Shown here piece by piece: positions 23,317 through 34,466 of a DNA stretch of 64,000 bases; position 1 is the stretch's first letter, and each line of letters begins with the position of its first letter. Both the position numbers and the translations under genes were made by a program. The DNA is taken from the NCBI GenBank assembly GCA_947429165.1, contig CANEON010000001.1, forward strand, positions 1-64,000. Reading direction: 5' to 3'. Origin of the DNA: an uncultured Mycoplasmataceae bacterium (lineage in GTDB: Bacteria; Bacillota_I; Bacilli_A; Mycoplasmatales; Mycoplasmoidaceae). Under the pieces are notes generated by a model. It was not told where the DNA came from, made no database searches, and was given only the letters and a program-made list of their open reading frames with translations.

Positions 23317-23361
23317 TTTGTCTTTTTTTGATTAAAAAATTAATCATTTTCAACCATTTTG

Positions 23362-23390
23362 TTGAAAAAAAAAAAAAAACAACATAAAAT
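23362..23390 (+). promoter_or_regulatory. Poly(A)-spaced promoter, A15
   Basis: TTGAAA (23362-23367), then poly(A) (15 A in total, 23365-23379), CAACA and TAAAAT (23385-23390). The -35/-10 spacing is exactly 17 nt. The ATG of the surface protein follows 10 nt after the -10 box, so the leader is very short. Confidence 0.65.
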
Positions 23391-23400
23391 ATATATTAAT

Positions 23401-24975
23401 ATGCAAAAAAGCAAGAAAACTAAAAGGGTCTTAAAAATTTTTGCTTTAACAACTGCTAGTATTTTAATGACTGGTGGTATTTTTAGTTATTCATCTTCTT
23501 GCTCGTGCAGCTCTCGAGTACCTTCAAAAGTTGATTTAGCTTGACTATTTAAAGAAGTTGGTAGTGATCAGTACGGACATGATAGTGCACGTTGATGTAA
23601 CAACGTTGGTCTTGATGGCAAAATCCCAGCAGAAAGAGAAATGAATGATAAATCGTGCTATGGTGGAAAATCTTTCTATGGTGAATCTGGTTATAGAGTA
23701 GATATGCCAAGTAGTGTTTTCTACACAAAAGAAAAAATTATTAGTTACTTACAAGAAGATTTAACTGCTGGTTTTCAAGATAAATATCCAAAATTGGATG
23801 GACAAGTTGATATTGAATTAGATTGTACTTCAAGTGATTCTAAACAACCAGAAGCACTTAACAAATGACATAAAGTTTTGGTTTCTGCAAAAGAAGATGC
23901 TGTTGGTTATTCTGGTTCATTTACTGTTTACTATTATTTAATTAATTCAGAAGCTAGAAATTTAGCAACCGATTTTTCAGAAACAGATATTAAATTTAAA
24001 TACACTATTGATGATGACCAAAACCCAATTAAGGATTTAGAAGTTTTAAATTATTCAAGTTTAAAATCTGCTATTCTTTATTCAAATCCAAATATTATAC
24101 CTGACGCCATTCATTTTCAATATTGTTTAGATAATTCAATTGCTGATACCGATCCAAACAAGTGAGTGGACTGAGAAGAACAATCAGCTCAACCAACTCC
24201 TGGCTCAGATAATCCGGTTTATGATAGCTCAAGAGAGTTCGGTGTAAGATGTTCTGATAGTTCTATTTCTGATATATGTAAAAAATTATGATCTACTCAA
24301 GAAAAGACATATGGAAGTAAAGAAGACAAGATGAGGTTAAGAATAACTCCTAATGAATATCTAGCTACATATCACGATCAGTTACCAATTGAATTCACAA
24401 TCAGTCTATATCGAAATGAAATTAAAAACGATCCTGGTTGGTATGCAAAATGAAATAACACGACACCGCACCAATTCATTGTAACTCCAACAAATGAAAG
24501 CTTAAAATATGCATTCGATGTTGAATATGAAAGTTATCAATTAATTCATTACTTAGATGCTTATCCTAATTCGTGAAAGTGAAATATTAACTCTGAATCA
24601 AAGGTTGCAACATTCTTAATAGATGATACGAATCCATATTATGCAACAAATAATGATTTAGATAAATCGAGTTATCAATTCTCTTATTCAACAGTTCAAA
24701 AAGTAAAATTCTTCGAAAGGTATTTAAAAGGTATAGATTGGGAAAATATATTCTATCAGAAACCAACAGAAGATGAAGTTAAAAGATTTATTGAATGGAG
24801 CGCTATCCAAAAATACGGTGAGAGCGAAAAAATATATTGGAATGAGTTGGAAGTCTCCGTCTCTAAAACAGATGCTCAAATAACAATAAAAAGCCCAAGT
24901 GGTCCATACACCTTAATGTCAACATTACATTATTATGGATTTGAACAAAAAATACAATACAAATTAATAAATTAA
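23401..24975 (+). CDS. Surface lipoprotein A, YxGS/WVDW family
   Basis: 524 residues. A signal sequence with a Ser/Cys-rich end (FSYSSSC) suggests a lipoprotein. Family landmarks: a module with WHKVLVSAKEDAVGYSGSFT and a following YYYL at about residues 158-182, then WVDW after about residue 257, a long middle domain with DTNPYYA, and a C-terminal module ending in a beta-strand (IQYKLIN). It is a paralogue of the gene at 25017-26489 and of the minus-strand gene at 44756-46292. Trp is mostly TGA, but several TGG codons cluster in 24430-24860. First gene of a three-gene operon behind the poly(A)-spaced promoter. Function unknown; probably an antigen or adhesin. Confidence 0.75.
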
Positions 24976-24992
24976 AATAGAAAGGCAAAATT

Positions 24993-25016
24993 ATGAAAAA
25001 CTTAAAAAAATTTTAA
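24993..25016 (+). CDS. Seven-codon leader ORF MKNLKKF
   Basis: ATG 24993 to TAA 25016, preceded by the Shine-Dalgarno AGAAAGG. The stop codon is directly followed by the ATG of surface protein B in the same frame. Either a tiny coupling leader peptide, or a nonsense change that cut an earlier, longer N-terminus. Confidence 0.4.
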   Translation: MKNLKKF

Positions 25017-26489
25017 ATGAAAAAATTAATATTATTCACAGTTACTCCGGTAACATTATTAGCAGTTGGTGGAACAACTACTGCTGTTGTATTAAATAAT
25101 ACAAAACACGTTAATGCTGAAAAAACTGATATCACATCTGTTTTTAGTAAATTATCTACATGAGCGAGCGATGTTACTCAAGGTGCGTCTCCAGCTATGA
25201 CTGCAGAAAACTGTTTAAATGATGAAGTATTCACTGGCGCTGGTATAAGAGAATCAAGCAAAAACTTCGTTTGAGATGCAGACAACTTACTTTACTACTT
25301 ACAAAAACAAGTTAATAACACTGAAGCAATAACTGGTAATCCTGCAATAGTTAATGAATTAGATGTTGTTTTCCAACCAAACTATAACACTGATCAAGCT
25401 AATAACAAATGACAAAAAGTAACTATTAGTGCAAACCAACACAGTGTTAACTATTCGGGCAGTATTAACTTGTATTACTACTTAGACAAAACTGACTATA
25501 AAAGAGATTTATCTGCTGATTTCACAAACACCGAAATTGACATGAGTGCTATGAGTGATTATGCTTCAGTATATGCTCCAACTAACGCGCAAATCTTAAA
25601 CGCAATCAAATCAAAAAATAGTAATTTGAATATTAACTCTGCTCACATCCAATATTGCTTAGACACAACAGCTACAACTCCTAACTGAGTTGATTGAGCA
25701 ACTTTTGATGCAGCAACAGGAAGTTATAAAACAAGTAACACTGCTGGCGTTAACGGAACTGCCGCTGATGAAACTAATTGATTTAGTTTATGAAGTACAG
25801 CCGGACATTACGGACGTACTGCTGCTGAAAAATCAACTCTTAAAGGTGCTTTAAGATTAATTTCAAATTCTCAAGTTTCTTCTTGTTATCCACAAAACTC
25901 AAGTGTTGAATTCTCTATTACTTTTGCTCGTCCATTTATTTATACACAACAAGGTTGAGGTTCAAGTGCTGCATGAGGAATAGATAAAAAACACGAATAT
26001 ATCGTTACTCCTGATGAAGGAAACTTTAAAACAACATTTGTTCAAGCATATGGCGATGGTAATACATATCCTTGATTTACTAAATTAAACAAAGTTCCTG
26101 ATTCTTGATCTTTCACAAGAGTTTCAGATGATTCTAAACTTTATGCAAACTTCCAAATGGATGGAACTAATCCGTATTTTGCTGCCTTTACATCAGAACC
26201 ATCAAAGAAAAATTACTTCTTATATGAAGTAATGTCAAAAATTGATTTTGCTGCTACATATGGTAAATTCTGACCAACTGAAGGCGTAAACTTCTATGCC
26301 AACCCAACTCAAAATGATGTTGTTAGCTATTTAACATATATGGTTGCTAAAGATACTGAGGTAGACCCAATTTATTGAGCTGAAGTAACTATCTCTATTA
26401 ACACATCTGACAAAACAATTACTTTAAGTGTTCCAAACTCTCTTCACTATAACGGTTCTAATTTAACTCTTAAATATACAATCGGATAG
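25017..26489 (+). CDS. Surface protein B, YxGS/WVDW family
   Basis: 490 residues. Signal peptide MKKLILFTVTPVTLLAVGG to about residue 36 (ends HVNAEK), without a Cys lipobox. Same order as protein A: segment KWQKVTISANQHSVNYSGSI followed by YYYL, then NWVDW, a middle domain with DGTNPYFA, and a C-terminal module ending VPNSLHYNGSNLTLKYTIG. Trp residues are almost all TGA. Its ribosome binding site actually serves the leader ORF just upstream, so translation probably depends on re-initiation. Stop is 3 nt before the next gene. Confidence 0.75.
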
Positions 26490-26492
26490 TTA

Positions 26493-28759
26493 ATGAGCAA
26501 ACAAAAGAGGAAGCTAAAAACAATGATTTTTTCTGCTGTTTTATTAAACAGTAGTTTATTGTCTTTAGTTCCTTCTTTTAATTCTCCGCAGAATAAGATT
26601 AATTCTCGTTCTACTAATCTTGAAAATGGAAAAACAAATATTAATTCCATTTTTAATGTTGGTGCAGAAACCGGAATTAAACCAATGATAGGTGTCACCG
26701 AAACATTGACAGACGACGAGATTCACGGACACCTTTATAAATATCTTAAAGAAAAGAATTTATTTAATCAATATCCCACTTTATTAAATGACTTAGTTTA
26801 CATAGTAAACTCTTCTACAAAAAAGATATTAATTAAAGCTCATAGTTCATCGGAAAAATATGAAGGACAGTTTGAATTAAGCTATTCAAATCTTTTTCCT
26901 AAAATCACACTTACCCAATTATTTTCTGGATTACCAAAAATTGAATCATCTTTAACAACTCCATCAAGAAAATCTTTAATTAGTGCTATATCAAATTATT
27001 TTGATAAATCAACTCAATATAACATTTATAAAAATGTTATTTCTTATTTAACTTTTAGTTTTCAAAATAATAAAGTTGAAATTCATTTACAAACAGTAGC
27101 AAAATATTGTGGAATAGTTGATGAAGGATCAGTTCTTCAAATTCCTTATCAAGTTAATACTCCAGCCTCATCTACTGATATCTGTGCAATCATTCCAGTT
27201 AACACTTATTTGAATTGTGCATCTACTGCAAGTAAAACTCCATGATCAACATTACCTACTTATGAAGAGTTTTGTTTAAAGTTAAAAGAACAATTTGGTC
27301 AAAGTTTACAAACTGACGCCCTTCAAATTAATATTGAAGATGCGTTCAATATTTGAGAAACACAATATAGATTAACAATTGTCCCTAGTAAGAATTCTTC
27401 TTACTATACAGGAAGCACTTGTATTATGTTTTATTTAAAAGACACAAGAGTTGCGTTAAATCAAGTAATTAAAGTTGGTCAAGATGTAGCTAATCCAATG
27501 CAAGTGTATAGAACAAAGAATGCTAGTGCTGCTAAATCTGGTGAAAACAAAATCATTAATATTATTGCTGCAGCAAATAATATTGATCCAGGAACATTAA
27601 TAAGCGACGACTTTTCTTTTACATATTCTTCTGGTGCTGGTGGAACTGAAACTATTGGGAATAAATTTACTCTTACAATAACAGTTAATAACAATTCAAG
27701 ATACTACAAAGGGTCTGTAACAATAAATTGTATTTATGTACAACAACCAGCAATTTTTGAAGTTACATGTCAAGAATTATTTGGTAATCAAGGTTCATAC
27801 AATTGATCAACAAACCAATTGTCTACAATCAGTAGCCAAAAATTTGCTTTTGAAAGAATGAATCCATACAATAATCAAGTTGGTATTGCTTATTCAAATG
27901 TTACTATGACCAACACCAACGATCCATACTTAAGCATTGGTTACAAAGTAAAATACCAAAATGTTGAATATGATGTTTGGGGAATTTTAGGTACAAACGA
28001 CATTCAAAAAACAAACTTAGCAACCGCAGAAGAAGATAAAGGTGCGCTTGCATTTGCAACAGCTAGTTTTAGTGGTACTTGTAAACTTTATGGAAAAATT
28101 GGACTCCCTTATACAATTCAATATTTTGGTAAGAATTGCTTTAGAAAACAATCTGGTGTAACTGACTTTATTTGATTAAAAAACCAGGGCAAGTATATGA
28201 TGACAAAGAATTAGATTTCCAATCATCATTCTATTCTGATGCTTTTTATGAATGCTCAGGAGTTAAAAGATGAAGTGTTCCCACTCGTATTCAAGATATT
28301 CCTGCTGAATGAGTTGGTGGAGCAGCAATCTCTATGCCCACATATTTTTTAAGTAGTAAAAAATATTATCCATACGCTAAATCAAATGGTAAGAATATTG
28401 CAAATAACTATCAGTTTGCAACATTATATGTTACTGAAAATTTATTAGAAACATATAAGCAAGATAGCACTTGAAAAGTAAAAGCAACAAATATTTTACC
28501 TATTCCTCATGTTTCGAAAATTATGGCTCCACAAGTGATAGCTACTTCAAACAGTACTGATCAACAAATATTTACAGCTTGAGTTACAACTAGTGCTCAA
28601 CAAGCATCTACAACATATGCTGATTTGTTAGCAAAAATTCAAGATAGTGACTCAATCTATAAATATGTTGTAGATAGAACTAATAAAACAATTACTATCT
28701 ATATAAAAGATAACCACTATTACTACGGAGAATTTACTGCTAACCTTGTATTAAACTAA
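26493..28759 (+). CDS. Surface protein C, interrupted by a -1 frameshift
   Basis: The first frame runs from ATG 26493 to TAG 28214 (573 residues). At 28178-28184 the zero frame reads TTA-AAA-AAC; a -1 shift here continues in an open frame for 191 more residues to TAA 28759, giving about 755 residues. The extra part ends in a beta module (VDRTNKTITIYIKDNHYYYG) of the kind that closes proteins A and B, so both frames belong to one gene. The N-terminus has a signal sequence; modules like TLTDDEIHGHLYKYL and SSSEKYEGQFELSY match the gene at 3262-4386. Last gene of the operon. Whether the shift is programmed, phase-variable or an error is open. Confidence 0.7.
28178..28184 (+). other. Slippery heptamer A-AAA-AAC
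   Basis: AAAAAAC in the correct phase (TTA AAA AAC) for -1 ribosomal frameshifting, at the exact point where the zero frame is about to close and the -1 frame becomes the family-like frame. One extra A would fuse the frames at DNA level. Confidence 0.6.
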
Positions 28760-28789: not shown

Positions 28790-29677
28790 TTAAGCTTTAT
28801 TTTTTAAATCGTAATAGCCTAAGAATACATTAGTATTCTTGGCTTTTTTATTTGGTATATGATAACGTTTAGTTTTTGATTGCATTAAATAATGGAAACA
28901 AATAAAAGAAGACACGACTCCATAACTTATTAATAATGGAATAAATATTATGTAAGGGAACGGAATGCCCTTAAATATAATTCCGATTACATAGTAATCT
29001 CCACCTTCTGCCCAATCCCCTGGTTTCATTCCTGAAACAAAGTGATTAATATCAAACGAATAAGCCATGATGATTACATATAAATAAAATGAAAACGTTG
29101 TTACATTAGTTCATAAGAATGTTTTTCATTTTAATGAAGGGGTATTTAATCAAATACCAACAGCAATAACTAAATTTAAGAAGTGAAGAATAAACATCAT
29201 TCTGTATGGCGGTCTTCCTAAGAAGATAAATTCAGCATTAATGGCTACTAAGTTATCGGCATTAAACACCATTCCAGCATAAGTAAATATCGTTCCGATT
29301 ATTGCTGGTCCGCAAAAGAAAGATGCAATCTTTCTTGATCTATCACATATAAGACTAATGCACATCCCCAAGAAAAAGAATGGGCATAAATCAGTAAGCA
29401 TAGATTTACTTTTAAAGAAATCGTCTCATGGTCCTACATCGATTCCAGGATCACTATAGTATGGTAATATTTCTCCCGTTGATAAATAACGTTGAGCTCC
29501 CATACAATCTCACATTCATCTACCAAACACAAAATAAATAAGACCTAAAATAGAAATTACTAATCAGAATACGTAATAATTTGTGAATTTCTTTATATAT
29601 GGATGAACAAACACTTGCAAACCACATATGGCCGCTACTAAAATAATTAAAACTATTGCAAATGCTGTTAATGACAT
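28790..29677 (-). CDS. Polytopic membrane protein of unknown function
   Basis: 295 residues. About seven hydrophobic segments are visible, starting MSLTAFAIVLIILVAAICGL, with aromatic/charged loops such as GRWMWDCMGAQRYL. It resembles the multi-spanning integral membrane proteins found as single copies in many mycoplasmas (DUF5378-type), but I cannot name it firmly. A TATAAT lies 10-11 nt before the ATG. It is divergently arranged with the sialic acid operon across a 62-bp gap holding an inverted repeat, so joint regulation is possible. TGA codes for at least six Trp. Confidence 0.65.
28816..28849 (+). terminator. Terminator of the surface operon, inside the convergent gene
   Basis: Hairpin of AGCCTAAGAATAC and GTATTCTTGGCT around ATTA, followed by TTTTTTA on the plus strand. 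The stem lies within the last 20 codons of the minus-strand membrane protein gene, so one sequence codes on one strand and terminates on the other. Confidence 0.8.
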
Positions 29678-29739: not shown

Positions 29740-30483
29740 ATGTTACTAAAAGACAAAATTGCAATTATTACTGGTGGAACAAGAGGAATTGGTTTTGAAA
29801 CTGTTCGTCAATTTATTATTCATGGGGCAAAAGTTGCTCTATGTGGTTCAAGACACGAAACAGTTGATAAAGCATTAAGTCAATTAAAATCTGAATTTCC
29901 TCAAACTGAAGTTTTAGGATTTTATCCTAATTTAACAAACGAACAAGAGGTTGTTCAAATGTACAATGAAGTTGAAAAAAAGTTTGGAAAGATTGATGTT
30001 CTTGTTAATAATGCCGGTGTTTCTTCATCTACTCCTATCGAAAAATACACTGAAGCTGAGTTTGATAAAATTGCAAATTTAAATATTAAGTCTGTTTTTG
30101 TTTGTTCTAAAGCAGTTGTCCCTTTTTTAGAAAAAACTAAAGGTGTTATCTTAAATACAAGTTCAATGGTAAGCAAATATGGTCAACCAGCAGGAACTAT
30201 GTATCCAGCGAGTAAATTTGCTGTAAATGGTATAACCATTTCTCTTGCTAGAGAATTAGCTCCAAAGGGAATTAGAGTAAATGCTGTTGCTCCTGGTATT
30301 ACAAACACAGATATGGTCAGAGCATTACCAAGAGAAATGATTGCACCATTAATAAAAACAATCCCATTAGGAAGAATAGGTGAACCAAAAGACATTGCAA
30401 ATGCTTATGTATTCTTAGCAAGTGATATGGCTAGTTATATCACTGGTGACATTATCCACGTAGATGGATGTGCTAGAGCGTAA
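29740..30483 (+). CDS. Short-chain dehydrogenase/reductase (FabG-like)
   Basis: 247 residues. Rossmann fold with the cofactor motif TGGTRGIG at residues 10-17, NNAG near residue 90, catalytic Ser (NTSSM) and Y-x3-K (YPASK), and an end like GEPKDIANAYVFLASD then GDIIHVDGC. Such proteins are NAD(P)H-dependent oxidoreductases; FabG-type 3-oxoacyl-ACP reductases are the nearest class. Mollicutes usually lack fatty acid synthesis, so the substrate may be a sugar or a carbonyl compound. First gene of the operon with the transporter, sialyltransferase and NeuA; 2 nt to the next gene. A short or absent leader is likely (AT-rich -10 region abuts the ATG). Confidence 0.85.
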   Translation: MLLKDKIAIITGGTRGIGFETVRQFIIHGAKVALCGSRHETVDKALSQLKSEFPQTEVLGFYPNLTNEQEVVQMYNEVEKKFGKIDVLVNNAGVSSSTPIEKYTEAEFDKIANLNIKSVFVCSKAVVPFLEKTKGVILNTSSMVSKYGQPAGTMYPASKFAVNGITISLARELAPKGIRVNAVAPGITNTDMVRALPREMIAPLIKTIPLGRIGEPKDIANAYVFLASDMASYITGDIIHVDGCARA

Positions 30484-30485
30484 TA

Positions 30486-32195
30486 ATGAAAGATTCTAAA
30501 TATTTTTGAGTAGATTGATTAATTATTGCAGTTTATTTTGCAACAATTTTTACTGTTTGCGCAGTTATGAAGTACAAAAGAAAGAAACATCCTTCATTAA
30601 CTGAAAAACAAATTCCAAGTAAAGTAATCGGTTTTTCAATTTATGCTACTGGATTATCATCAATTACTTTTCTTTCAGTTCCTGGAACTTCGTTTTCTGG
30701 TGATTGAATGTTTGCGTTCGGTAATTTAACAATTTGTTTTTTAACGCCTTTGTTGATTTATTTCTTTTTACCTATATTTAAATCATTATCATGTCAATCA
30801 TTATTTGAAAACATTAGTAAAAGATATAGTCTTTCTCTAAAGAGAACTCTTGCTTTTTTCTATCTTTTATATAATATCTTCAAAATTTCATTAATGATCT
30901 ATCTTCCTGCTTCTTCATTAAGTTTAATCATTGAAGCAAGAACAGATGATTACATTTATTTGTTTATTGTTATCGTTGGAGCAGTAACAATAATCTATTC
31001 TTATTTATCTAACTTTAAACAGATAATATGAATTAATTTCTTTCAAACCTTCTTAATAGTCGCTTCATTAACAATTACAGTTGTTTTCTTAATTGTTGGT
31101 TCAGCAAAAATTAACGCTCTTGATTTTAATGAATTTATAAGTGAGGGAAAATTCTTAAAATCAAGCAATTGATTGCTTTCTCTAACTTCAGCTAGTATTC
31201 CTATCATCTTAATTTCAGAAATAATTAATGTTATTTACCAATATAGTTGTTCAAAAGATATCACACAACACTATATTTCTAATGGAAAAATTACAGATAC
31301 ATCAGATAGTTTAAAGACAAATGGGTTCATCGTTTTCTTTATGGTTATATTGTTTTATGTCCTAGGTTCATTGTTGTGGGCATTCTTTAGACACAAAACA
31401 GGATATGAGATAAATCCAGATCATACACTTTCATACAATGGAGAAGTAGTATGTAACGCTGATAATATAGTCACATATTACATGTGACACGTTCTACCTG
31501 TTGGTGCTTCTGCTGTTGCATTAATTGGTATGCTTGCAGCTTCGCAATCTTCTATTAGCTCTTCATTAAACTCAATTAGTGAAATTATGATTAAGAACTT
31601 TCTAGTTAATACTAACGAAAGAACAAAAGTATTAATTAGAAACTTCTCAATTTCTGTTAGTGGAGTATTTGCCGTTGCATTGGCGTTAACATTTGCTGGT
31701 TTAGGTGTTGGTGACATATTCCCGTTCTTTATTAGTATTTCAGGATTCTATTCGGCACCAATGGTAGGAATAGTATTACTCGGTTTATTCTCAAAGAAAG
31801 CAAATTCAATTGATGCATATTTAGGATTATCATTTGGTTTATTAGTTTGTCTTATTACATGAGTATTCTCATGTAAGTTTGTCCCAGGACAGCACATAAA
31901 CTCAATTTATATTCCTACTTTAGGTTTTATTTCTACATTATTACTTTCACTCATTACAAGTTGTTGTAGAAAGAACCCTGTAGAAAACTATCAAGATAGG
32001 AATATCTTTGTTTGTTTTAATAAAACACAGAAAAAAGAATTCAAGAATACTCAATTAGATATTTTCTATCATGCAAGATATAAAGAATATAAATTCTTTA
32101 AAAAAACTCAAAACTTATTCCTTAAAAATAAAATTGAAATTTTAAACTATGAAAAGTATAAACAAAGAAAACTAAGACACAAACATGCAAATTAA
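30486..32195 (+). CDS. Sodium:solute symporter (SSS family), probable sialic acid transporter
   Basis: 569 residues with about 13 membrane helices. The segment GFSIYATGLSSITFLSVPGT matches the helix 1-2 signature of SSS carriers, and the Ser-rich motif ASQSSISSSLNSISEI contains the conserved sodium-site Ser residues. The last 70 residues form a charged cytosolic tail. SSS members import sugars, sialic acid, proline, pantothenate or iodide. Sialic acid is inferred from the two following genes, a sialyltransferase and a CMP-sialic acid synthetase; the former overlaps this gene by 11 nt. Many Trp codons are TGA. Confidence 0.8.
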
Positions 32196-33789
32196 TTATG
32201 GTTTTTGAAAAAAATCTGTAGAAGTTTCATCTGGAGATAAGATTCCAGTAATTTTTCACACATATGACGCTTCATATGTATGTTTGAACTTTTTTGCTTT
32301 AGCAAATTTAATGCTAAAGATCCGTGAAAAGAACAAAAGCGAATATGATGAATCATGCCCTATCATCATATTGTTTAATGATGAAATAAGACAAATATAT
32401 AACTATTCTCCAACTGTTTTATATAACAAATACCCAAATGTATTTAAAGACAAAAATACTAATAACTATTTTGGTGTTTATTCAAATATTAATTGCCTTC
32501 CTAATCACGAAACTAAAAACATTCCATACAATGGTAATGAAATTGGAGCATATGAAATTAATGCATTAATTGAGTTTATTAACAAAAATAAAGATAGATC
32601 TAACTTTCAGTTTGATTATTGAATCGATGACTATAGATTAAATCTATTATGAAGAAACCATTCAGAAGCACTGTTCAATATTCTTAAATATTGTAGAAAT
32701 TTAAACGTTATTCCAAATGGTAGTTTGCAATGATGTAAATTTGGTTATTTACAAGAATATGCAAGAATGGCCAACAATCAAGAATTAACATTCTCGCCAA
32801 CAGAACAACAATGATTATGAGAAACAATATTTACAAAAAGTAAATACGAATCCGAACAATACAAAGATGAATTTGAAAAATTCAAAATGTCAAAGAAAGA
32901 ATGATTCATTGACAATGTAATGCTAGTTAAAAATTACAGCTTTGATTGTGACTGAGTAAATTATTTTGGAATTCAAAGTCCAAAGATTAAATTCTATGAA
33001 TACCCAGTTAACTTTGTTTCTTGACCAGAAATGTTCGAAATAGATAAAGATGAGTTTATTACCGATTTAAAACAAATGTTTGGAATTATTTCAGATTCTA
33101 TTTTTAAACAATCTATTGTAAAAAACTATGATTATTTTTCAAATAATAAAACAAATTTAGTTTTTCTTTTAACTCATGAGTGAGGAGAAAGAAAAGACGA
33201 ATTTAGTAAAACTTTTGAGAATATGATGAGCGAATTCTCAAAGAAGTATCCATTTGAAAAATTCAACTATATCTTCAAACACCACCCAAGAAAATCATTA
33301 AATGAAGTAATTAACGATATTGAAGAAGTGTGCGAAAAATCAGGAATAAAACCAATTATTATGAATAATGGTTTGCCTATAGAATTAACTTTATTCATTG
33401 ACATAGAAGAGAATAAAAATACAGGCAAATTAAATCTTTTAAATCCTTTAGACTTTACTGAGCCTACAAAAGATTTGACAAAATATACTGGTGTTTTTGC
33501 AGGATATAACCTTGTTTCTTCGTGTTTTTATACAATAATGAACGGATTTTACCAATCATATGAGGGCGTTGAATGAAATTATTTGATTCCTAACATTATT
33601 CCGTATGATCTTAATTTTGTTTGCGATGATTTTGTATGTGGTTTTAATTCAAACGATGATAAACTATCACCTCATTCATATAATATTAATGTTGAGTACT
33701 TTAACTTGTTAAATGACTGTTTTTTGAAAATGGATCATTTCTTGGATATATCAAAAATTCAACGACTTTCATCGCTATGAAAAAAATAA
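32185..33789 (+). CDS. GT80-like sialyltransferase
   Basis: 534 residues. The C-terminal half carries the CMP-binding signature of bacterial GT80 sialyltransferases: FKHHPR (His367-Pro368), then NGLPIEL (Glu400), then FAGYNLVSSCFYT (Ser445-Ser446). This follows the order HP, PxxxxFE, ASSLYFS in Pasteurella PmST1. VFLLTHEWGERKD aligns with the strand before it. GT80 enzymes move sialic acid from CMP-sialic acid to terminal galactose or similar. In the N-terminal domain the catalytic motif YDDGS appears as IPNGS (177-180), so the usual Asp is missing. No signal peptide; cytosolic like other GT80s. It overlaps the transporter by 11 nt and neuA by 13 nt, indicating one transcript. Confidence 0.75.
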
Positions 33790-34466
33790 ATTTAGCAATC
33801 ATTCCTGCACGAAGTGGATCAAAAGGAATTAAAGACAAAAACATTTTATTGATTAATAAAAAACCTTTGCTTGCTTACACAATTGAAGCTGCTAAAAAGT
33901 CAAAATGTTTTGACATTATTTTTGTATCTACTGACTCAAAAAAATATGCAGCAATGGCTAAAAAATATGGTGCAAACGTTGATTTTTTAAGATCAAAAAG
34001 GAACTCATCTGACACCTCTAAATCTATAGATTTAATGGTAGAAACTGTTGAAAATTTTAAGAAAAAAAATATCTATTGTGAGACTGTTACTTTACTTCAA
34101 CCAACAAGCCCATTAAGAGATGCAAATGACATTAAAAATGCATTTAAAATTCTAAAAAATAAGAAAGCGGATTCAGTAATTTCTGTATGCGAATCATCTC
34201 ACCCAACATTCCTTTACAACACATTAAAAAAAGATGATTCTTTACACAATTTTATAACAAAAAAAGACCTTCATAAGTCACGTCAGGAAGTTGATCAAGA
34301 ATACTATGTAAATGGCGCAATTTACATAGTAAAACCGTCTAAAAAATATGAGTTTTATGGGCATAAATCTTATGCATATTTGATGACTAAAAATCACTCT
34401 GTTGACATCAACGATTTATTTGATGTAAAGCTTTCAGAATTTTTACTTAATAATATAAAAAAATAA
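33777..34466 (+). CDS. neuA: CMP-N-acetylneuraminic acid synthetase
   Basis: 229 residues, the usual bacterial length. It couples CTP and sialic acid to CMP-sialic acid. Motifs: nucleotide-binding IPARSGSKGIKDKN at 8-21, LLQPTSPLR, YYVNGAIYI, and the metal-binding DINDLFD near the C-terminus. Family members of this kind also activate legionaminic or pseudaminic acid, so the exact nonulosonic acid is uncertain. It supplies the donor for the preceding sialyltransferase. No sialic acid synthase or catabolic gene is in the window, so the sugar is probably imported. Confidence 0.88.
   Translation: MKKINLAIIPARSGSKGIKDKNILLINKKPLLAYTIEAAKKSKCFDIIFVSTDSKKYAAMAKKYGANVDFLRSKRNSSDTSKSIDLMVETVENFKKKNIYCETVTLLQPTSPLRDANDIKNAFKILKNKKADSVISVCESSHPTFLYNTLKKDDSLHNFITKKDLHKSRQEVDQEYYVNGAIYIVKPSKKYEFYGHKSYAYLMTKNHSVDINDLFDVKLSEFLLNNIKK

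Follow-up and report, generated by a model that had tools for sequence, protein, structure and literature searches.

The 64,000-nt stretch of DNA analysed here (positions 1 to 64,000 of contig CANEON010000001.1 from an uncultured Mycoplasmataceae bacterium; hereafter the window) carries on its forward strand a cassette of three overlapping genes, predicted to encode a SiaT-like sodium:solute symporter (SSS), a GT80-like sialyltransferase and a NeuA-type cytidine monophosphate (CMP)-nonulosonate synthetase. The best explanation of this gene set, held with somewhat better than even confidence, is the salvage, activation and transfer of sialic acid, most likely N-acetylneuraminic acid (Neu5Ac), onto a glycan of the cell itself. 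Such import, activation and attachment of sialic acid appears to be unreported for this bacterial group; no literature on a sialyltransferase or NeuA in Mollicutes was found, which is weak evidence of absence as the search covered open-licence papers only.

Open reading frames were read with genetic code 4 (TGA as Trp). This code is required because the symporter gene needs seven and the middle gene 12 TGA codons read as Trp, both frames being broken under code 11. Under code 4 the cassette consists of three intact genes, at 30486-32195 (569 amino acids), 32185-33789 (534 amino acids) and 33777-34466 (229 amino acids), with the overlaps of 11 nt and 13 nt that the first-pass annotation had described. 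Both overlaps were read directly in the sequence. The symporter stop and glycosyltransferase start share 32185-32195, with the identical 11 nt in two further genomes (L002, L003), and the glycosyltransferase stop and NeuA start share 33777-33789, with the identical 13 nt in L002, L003 and a third genome (L017 of G029).

The third gene (33777-34466; PF02348, 3.4e-29) is predicted with high confidence to encode a CMP-nonulosonate synthetase. Its best PDB match is Neisseria meningitidis NeuA (1eyr, 5.8e-32), and KdsB structures match it far more weakly. Both NeuA motifs named in the first-pass annotation are present, namely the cytidine triphosphate (CTP)-binding P-loop IPARSGSKGIKDKN at 33801-33842, in which R12, S15, K16, K21 and N22 are the same as in N. 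meningitidis NeuA, and LLQPTSPLR around 34092-34118. Alignment also shows conservation of Gln104, Arg165 and Asp209 (N. meningitidis positions), of Q108 and R169, and of the aromatic N-acyl pocket Y183/F193/Y194, with the roles of active-site residues taken from published work (PMC2901514, PMC6580227). PseF (pseudaminic) identity was rejected: PseF was the only strong NCBIfam match, but its score was below the cut-off, NeuB/NeuC-linked enzymes scored equally high on the same model, and the tree separated the third gene from true PseF with support of 100/100. By sequence the gene clearly places in the NeuA/Leg branch, outside PseF.

The middle gene (32185-33789) has no family assignment in Pfam or NCBIfam, and the profile search that had been proposed for it failed to recover GT80, with no GT80 match in a Pfam hmmscan at E values up to 10. 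No sequence relative was found in the PDB, where a profile search with a nine-sequence alignment was also empty. A KAP NTPase candidate (E 0.0017) was discarded, being under the gathering score and in disagreement with the predicted fold. An AF2 model was built on nine sequences, distant homologues from other mollicutes included, and when it was searched against the PDB with Foldseek all 14 matches at E<=0.001 were GT80 sialyltransferases (best 4.9e-6). Comparison by VIA placed GT80 in the 21 best rows, with a Z score of 12.1 (289 residues aligned, root-mean-square deviation 4.4) versus 8.5 for the next family, and the closest solved fold is GT-B of the PmST1 type. A second model, of a lipoprotein homologue approximately 20% identical, again gave GT80 as the best match (E 7.5e-8), the lead over plant UGTs by VIA being small; among viral structures there was no significant match. 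The middle protein therefore very probably has the GT80 fold, as modelled, in line with the first-pass assignment.

In the GT80 enzyme PmST1 of Pasteurella multocida, the catalytic residues are Asp141, His311, Glu338 and Ser355-Ser356 (PMC4202792). Counterparts were matched by motif order and not by residue-level structural superposition, giving Asp149 (32629-32631) as the candidate catalytic base in place of Asp141, His367-Pro368 (33283-33288) as the predicted HP motif for the CMP phosphate, Glu400 (33382-33384) for Glu338, and Ser445-Ser446 (33517-33522) for Ser355-Ser356. The signature HP...PxE...SS, recognised in the first-pass annotation, is thus found, with the Glu lying in PIE at 398-400. 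Asp149, the HP motif and Glu400 are invariant in nine homologues (Asp149 down to 18% identity), and the serine pair is SS in the cassette copies and Ser/Thr in the distant homologues. No hydrophobic signal was seen at the N-terminus, and a cytoplasmic enzyme fits the use of a CMP-sugar made in the cytoplasm. The predicted GT-B fold and the catalytic Asp, HP, Glu and Ser-Ser are shared with the GT80 enzymes of P. multocida (PmST1) and Photobacterium, whereas identity to GT80 enzymes is 10-15% in structural alignments. The label GT80-like is used rather than GT80 because the Gly of the D/E-D/E-G motif is missing (DDY for DDG, the DD being conserved), the spacing of HP, Glu and Ser-Ser is unlike that of PmST1-type enzymes, and no Pfam profile recognises the protein.

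The first gene (30486-32195; PF00474) is predicted to encode an importer, with the SiaT of Proteus mirabilis (5nv9) as its best PDB match at 166.8 bits versus 56 for the next. It lies within the SiaT/nan clade with support of 95/96, in a small tree and on a long branch. All three plasmid-borne relatives that were examined stand in nan operons, of Lactobacillus, Ligilactobacillus and Enterococcus, and the closest mollicute relative, from another genus of the family, adjoins nanE-nanA, so that the grouping with sialate carriers on which the first reading depended was upheld. The contacts Ser60 and Thr63 are conserved, and Gln82 is replaced by Asn as in Staphylococcus aureus SiaT. The symporter shares its clade with SiaT and with the SSS carriers of mycoplasma nan clusters (listed in PMC2693436), but is approximately 25-31% identical to them and is linked to neuA, not nanA. 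Import of a nonulosonate is, on sequence grounds, quite probable, with Neu5Ac as the substrate less sure. Further support for nonulosonate import comes from another Bacilli genome (L074 5860-10273) in which neuA, an SSS gene, neuB and neuC stand in one row, i.e. with a symporter within a nonulosonate synthesis operon. An SSS carrier of another mollicute that is encoded beside inositol catabolism-like genes (L044 6981-13467) also lies inside the SiaT/nan clade, likely reflecting a switch of substrate.

The local lack of a sialic acid synthase or nan catabolic gene, as first noted, extends to the whole assembly of the window genome (92% complete) and to three cassette-bearing relatives (90-91%), with genome-wide statements resting on family searches. 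NeuB synthase (PF03102) was found in none of 13 genomes searched, the four cassette genomes included, with positive controls. The NanA lyase (PF00701) was likewise absent from the four cassette genomes and present in control genomes and G036. No BNR_2 sialidase, the sialidase family searched, was detected in the four cassette genomes, with controls again positive, and both NanA and a BNR_2 protein do occur in a genome from a different genus of the family. As NeuB and NanA were not found, the cell must obtain the sugar externally and would not route it into the known lyase pathway; together with the undetected BNR_2 gene, this makes salvage for display the best reading.

The cassette is rare, as had been anticipated for Mollicutes and as a survey of 60 relatives and 395 genomes of the class supports. 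NeuA was found in four species of the same genus (the window genome and three others; the survey covered 36 genomes of the genus) and in none of 24 genomes of other genera, and no other Mycoplasmatales was among the matches listed for the class, which otherwise came from larger-genome Bacilli families. NeuB was present in all six Bacilli NeuA clusters examined, and NeuC in most. NeuA/LegF enzymes of Bacilli nonulosonate clusters (G168, G340, G091) are 44-51% identical to the cassette enzyme and have a common active-site frame, but they adjoin NeuB and NeuC, whereas no synthase was found for the cassette and its enzyme has Asn for a metal-ligand Asp.

The gene order and both overlaps are kept in L002 and L003 and the genes are rearranged in G029. 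Values of dN/dS (nonsynonymous to synonymous rates) for the cassette genes are 0.08-0.18, and about 0.1 even for a pair with dS 1.08; the genes are under purifying selection. Since the gene set recurs in three other genomes and dN/dS is about 0.1, the cassette is not a chance arrangement. It occupies two loci, one between RpoA/lipoproteins and rpoB (window; probably also G029, where a small lipoprotein gene is ahead of the symporter and the contig ends after the symporter) and one flanked by pyr genes and purL (G026; also G025, where the contig ends after NeuA). Judged from core genes (median 96% amino acid identity, dS 0.22) and from the short-chain dehydrogenase/reductase (SDR) gene (dS 0.59), G029 is closely related to the window genome, yet its glycosyltransferase and NeuA genes show dS of 0.37-0.48 to G025/G026 versus 0.71-1.08 to the window. 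This conflict points to exchange between species and, together with the two loci, suggests that the cassette is mobile. No mobile-element boundary was recognised, repeats at the cassette ends being short, AT-rich, chance-like pairs. Two of the relatives come from the assemblies extra-SRR7533634 and extra-SRR7533638; a sister assembly of run SRR7533634 has been treated as a mouse-gut genome (PMC10507020).

In the proposed route, the Na+-coupled SSS carrier would import a nine-carbon acidic sugar in free form, for which host Neu5Ac released by other gut microbes is the likeliest candidate, and NeuA would join the sugar to CTP to give the CMP-sugar in the cytoplasm. The cytoplasmic, highly diverged GT80-like protein would then act as an inverting sialyltransferase and pass the sugar on to a cell-made acceptor. 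A membrane glycolipid is the likeliest acceptor, and it would afterwards be exposed on the wall-less surface. Surface display is reasonably likely and host mimicry plausible; evasion of the host or attachment to it would be possible benefits. Haemophilus influenzae salvages sialic acid for lipooligosaccharide sialylation via the SiaPQM tripartite ATP-independent periplasmic (TRAP) transporter, SiaB/NeuA and the Lic3A/SiaA sialyltransferases. The route proposed for the cassette would resemble this system in host sialic acid import, NeuA activation, transfer to a surface glycan and the lack of NeuB synthesis, but has an SSS instead of a TRAP transporter, a GT80-like instead of a GT42/GT52 enzyme, and three overlapping genes, in a genome from which no lipopolysaccharide (LPS) is expected and in which NanA was not found.

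Several observations weigh against this route. Relative to SiaT, the symporter has R135 replaced by K, F243 by E, T58 by G and the Na3 ligand D182 by N; Arg135 of SiaT forms the salt bridge to the substrate carboxylate (PMC5931594), and its position is occupied by Lys133 (30882-30884). Of the NeuA metal ligands, D209 is conserved and D211 is Asn (Asn212, 34410-34412) in all four cassette copies, with Asp in all other homologues covering the position; D211A in N. meningitidis NeuA lowers kcat 15,000-fold (PMC2901514), the substitution there being Ala and here Asn. The AF2 model of the middle protein has a pTM of 0.63 and a low mean pLDDT of 57, and the DDY motif departs from GT80. Neither an acceptor nor a flippase was identified, and with an assembly 92% complete the gene absences are not final. 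Scavenging and capping with host sialic acid, as first put forward, is partly supported, namely as to the enzymes of the route and the undetected synthesis and catabolism genes. Neu5Ac as the sugar is less sure, given the changed symporter contacts and a nearest NeuA from a legionaminic cluster, and a glycolipid or glycoprotein acceptor and host mimicry are likewise putative.

The alternative that survives best, although unlikely, keeps the same route with a bacterial nonulosonate (legionaminic-like) or Kdn from neighbouring cells as the sugar, in place of host Neu5Ac. The nearest NeuA, 51% identical, is encoded in a legionaminic-type LegB-LegC-NeuB-NeuC cluster, and besides the Arg135 to Lys change the symporter has Glu at the position of SiaT Phe243, beside the N-acetyl methyl group. 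Against this, the N-acyl pocket of the cassette NeuA is aromatic (Y183, F193, Y194) as in N. meningitidis, with Ile replacing one of these residues in the Leg-cluster enzyme, and free Neu5Ac is the abundant nonulosonate of the animal gut. Neu5Ac specifically remains a fairly likely identity for the sugar. It is improbable that the middle protein has the GT80 fold and another job, such as CMP-sialic acid hydrolysis or transfer of another CMP-sugar. Its 10-15% identity to GT80 enzymes, its missing Gly and the known hydrolase and trans-sialidase side activities of GT80 enzymes (PMC4202792) would allow this, but the catalytic Asp, HP, Glu and Ser-Ser are retained under purifying selection and a 13-nt overlap couples its gene to NeuA in four genomes.

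Slightly less probable still is a symporter that carries something else, with the nonulosonate synthesised internally through an unrecognised pathway involving the SDR. The inositol-linked carrier in the same clade indicates that substrates switch, and the SDR occurs in all four cassette genomes, with a single distant match (G008, 27% identity) among 13 other genomes searched; however, a NeuB-family synthase was found in 0 of 13 genomes, two of the four cassette genomes have the SDR at a site away from the cassette, and symporter and glycosyltransferase genes are coupled by 11 nt. That the cassette is a decaying acquisition without current function, as its low G+C (24-28% in the cassette genes versus 31% across the window and 33% in rpoB) and changed NeuA metal ligand might suggest, is very improbable given frames intact in four of four genomes and a dN/dS of about 0.1 even at dS 1.08.

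Sialylation of the cell surface has been described in bacteria that possess LPS or a capsule. If salvage and display are correct, sialylation by three genes in a cell with neither would show how little suffices, and mollicutes would gain a defined means of resembling the host surface. The case would also be one of testable cross-feeding in the gut, as no BNR_2-type sialidase was found and the cell would have to rely on others to release the sugar. GT80 would be extended into a family missed by sequence profiles.

Distant homologues of the middle gene occur in other mollicutes (L012 1366-3111; L039 538-2337; L013 874-2673; L014 1168-2967; L016 1162-2964; L015 490-2319), two of them in tandem in one genome. 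These carry a lipoprotein signal (SSC/ASC lipobox) and, judging from it, are probably on the cell surface. Asp149, HP and Glu400 are kept in these proteins, one of which is predicted to fold like GT80. A tentative and rather doubtful proposal is that mollicutes hold their own unrecognised GT80-like branch, with a cytoplasmic form in the mobile symporter-glycosyltransferase-NeuA cassette for self-decoration with scavenged sialic acid, and a surface-lipoprotein form in cassette-less mollicutes that might act on host or bacterial glycans, e.g. as a trans-sialidase.

The SDR gene (29740-30483, forward strand; PF13561/PF00106) ends 2 nt upstream of the symporter start, and rpoB starts 112 nt past the end of the NeuA gene. 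The transcription unit of the window genome probably comprises four genes, the SDR included; a promoter scan was uninformative, with sites no more frequent than in shuffled sequence. In G025/G026 the SDR gene follows pepA, apart from the cassette, and it may serve the route or merely mark the clade. The presence of SecY, RpoA, a DUF5378 membrane protein and ATP synthase genes in the window indicates a normal mollicute chromosome. The DUF5378 gene (28790-29677) is divergent from the SDR-cassette unit, and its product is 93% identical in G029. A series of large genes for rapidly changing surface- or lipoprotein-like products lies between rplQ and the cassette locus (23359-28759); their G029 homologues are 36-83% identical versus mostly 95-99% for the adjacent ribosomal proteins. 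A frame change close to an A-run (28172-28214) interrupts the large surface-protein gene at 26493-28759, and the G029 homologue of this gene is split at another place, near a T-run (L017 10581-10783), due to either phase variation or assembly error. One gene of this series has a near-threshold match to Spiralin.

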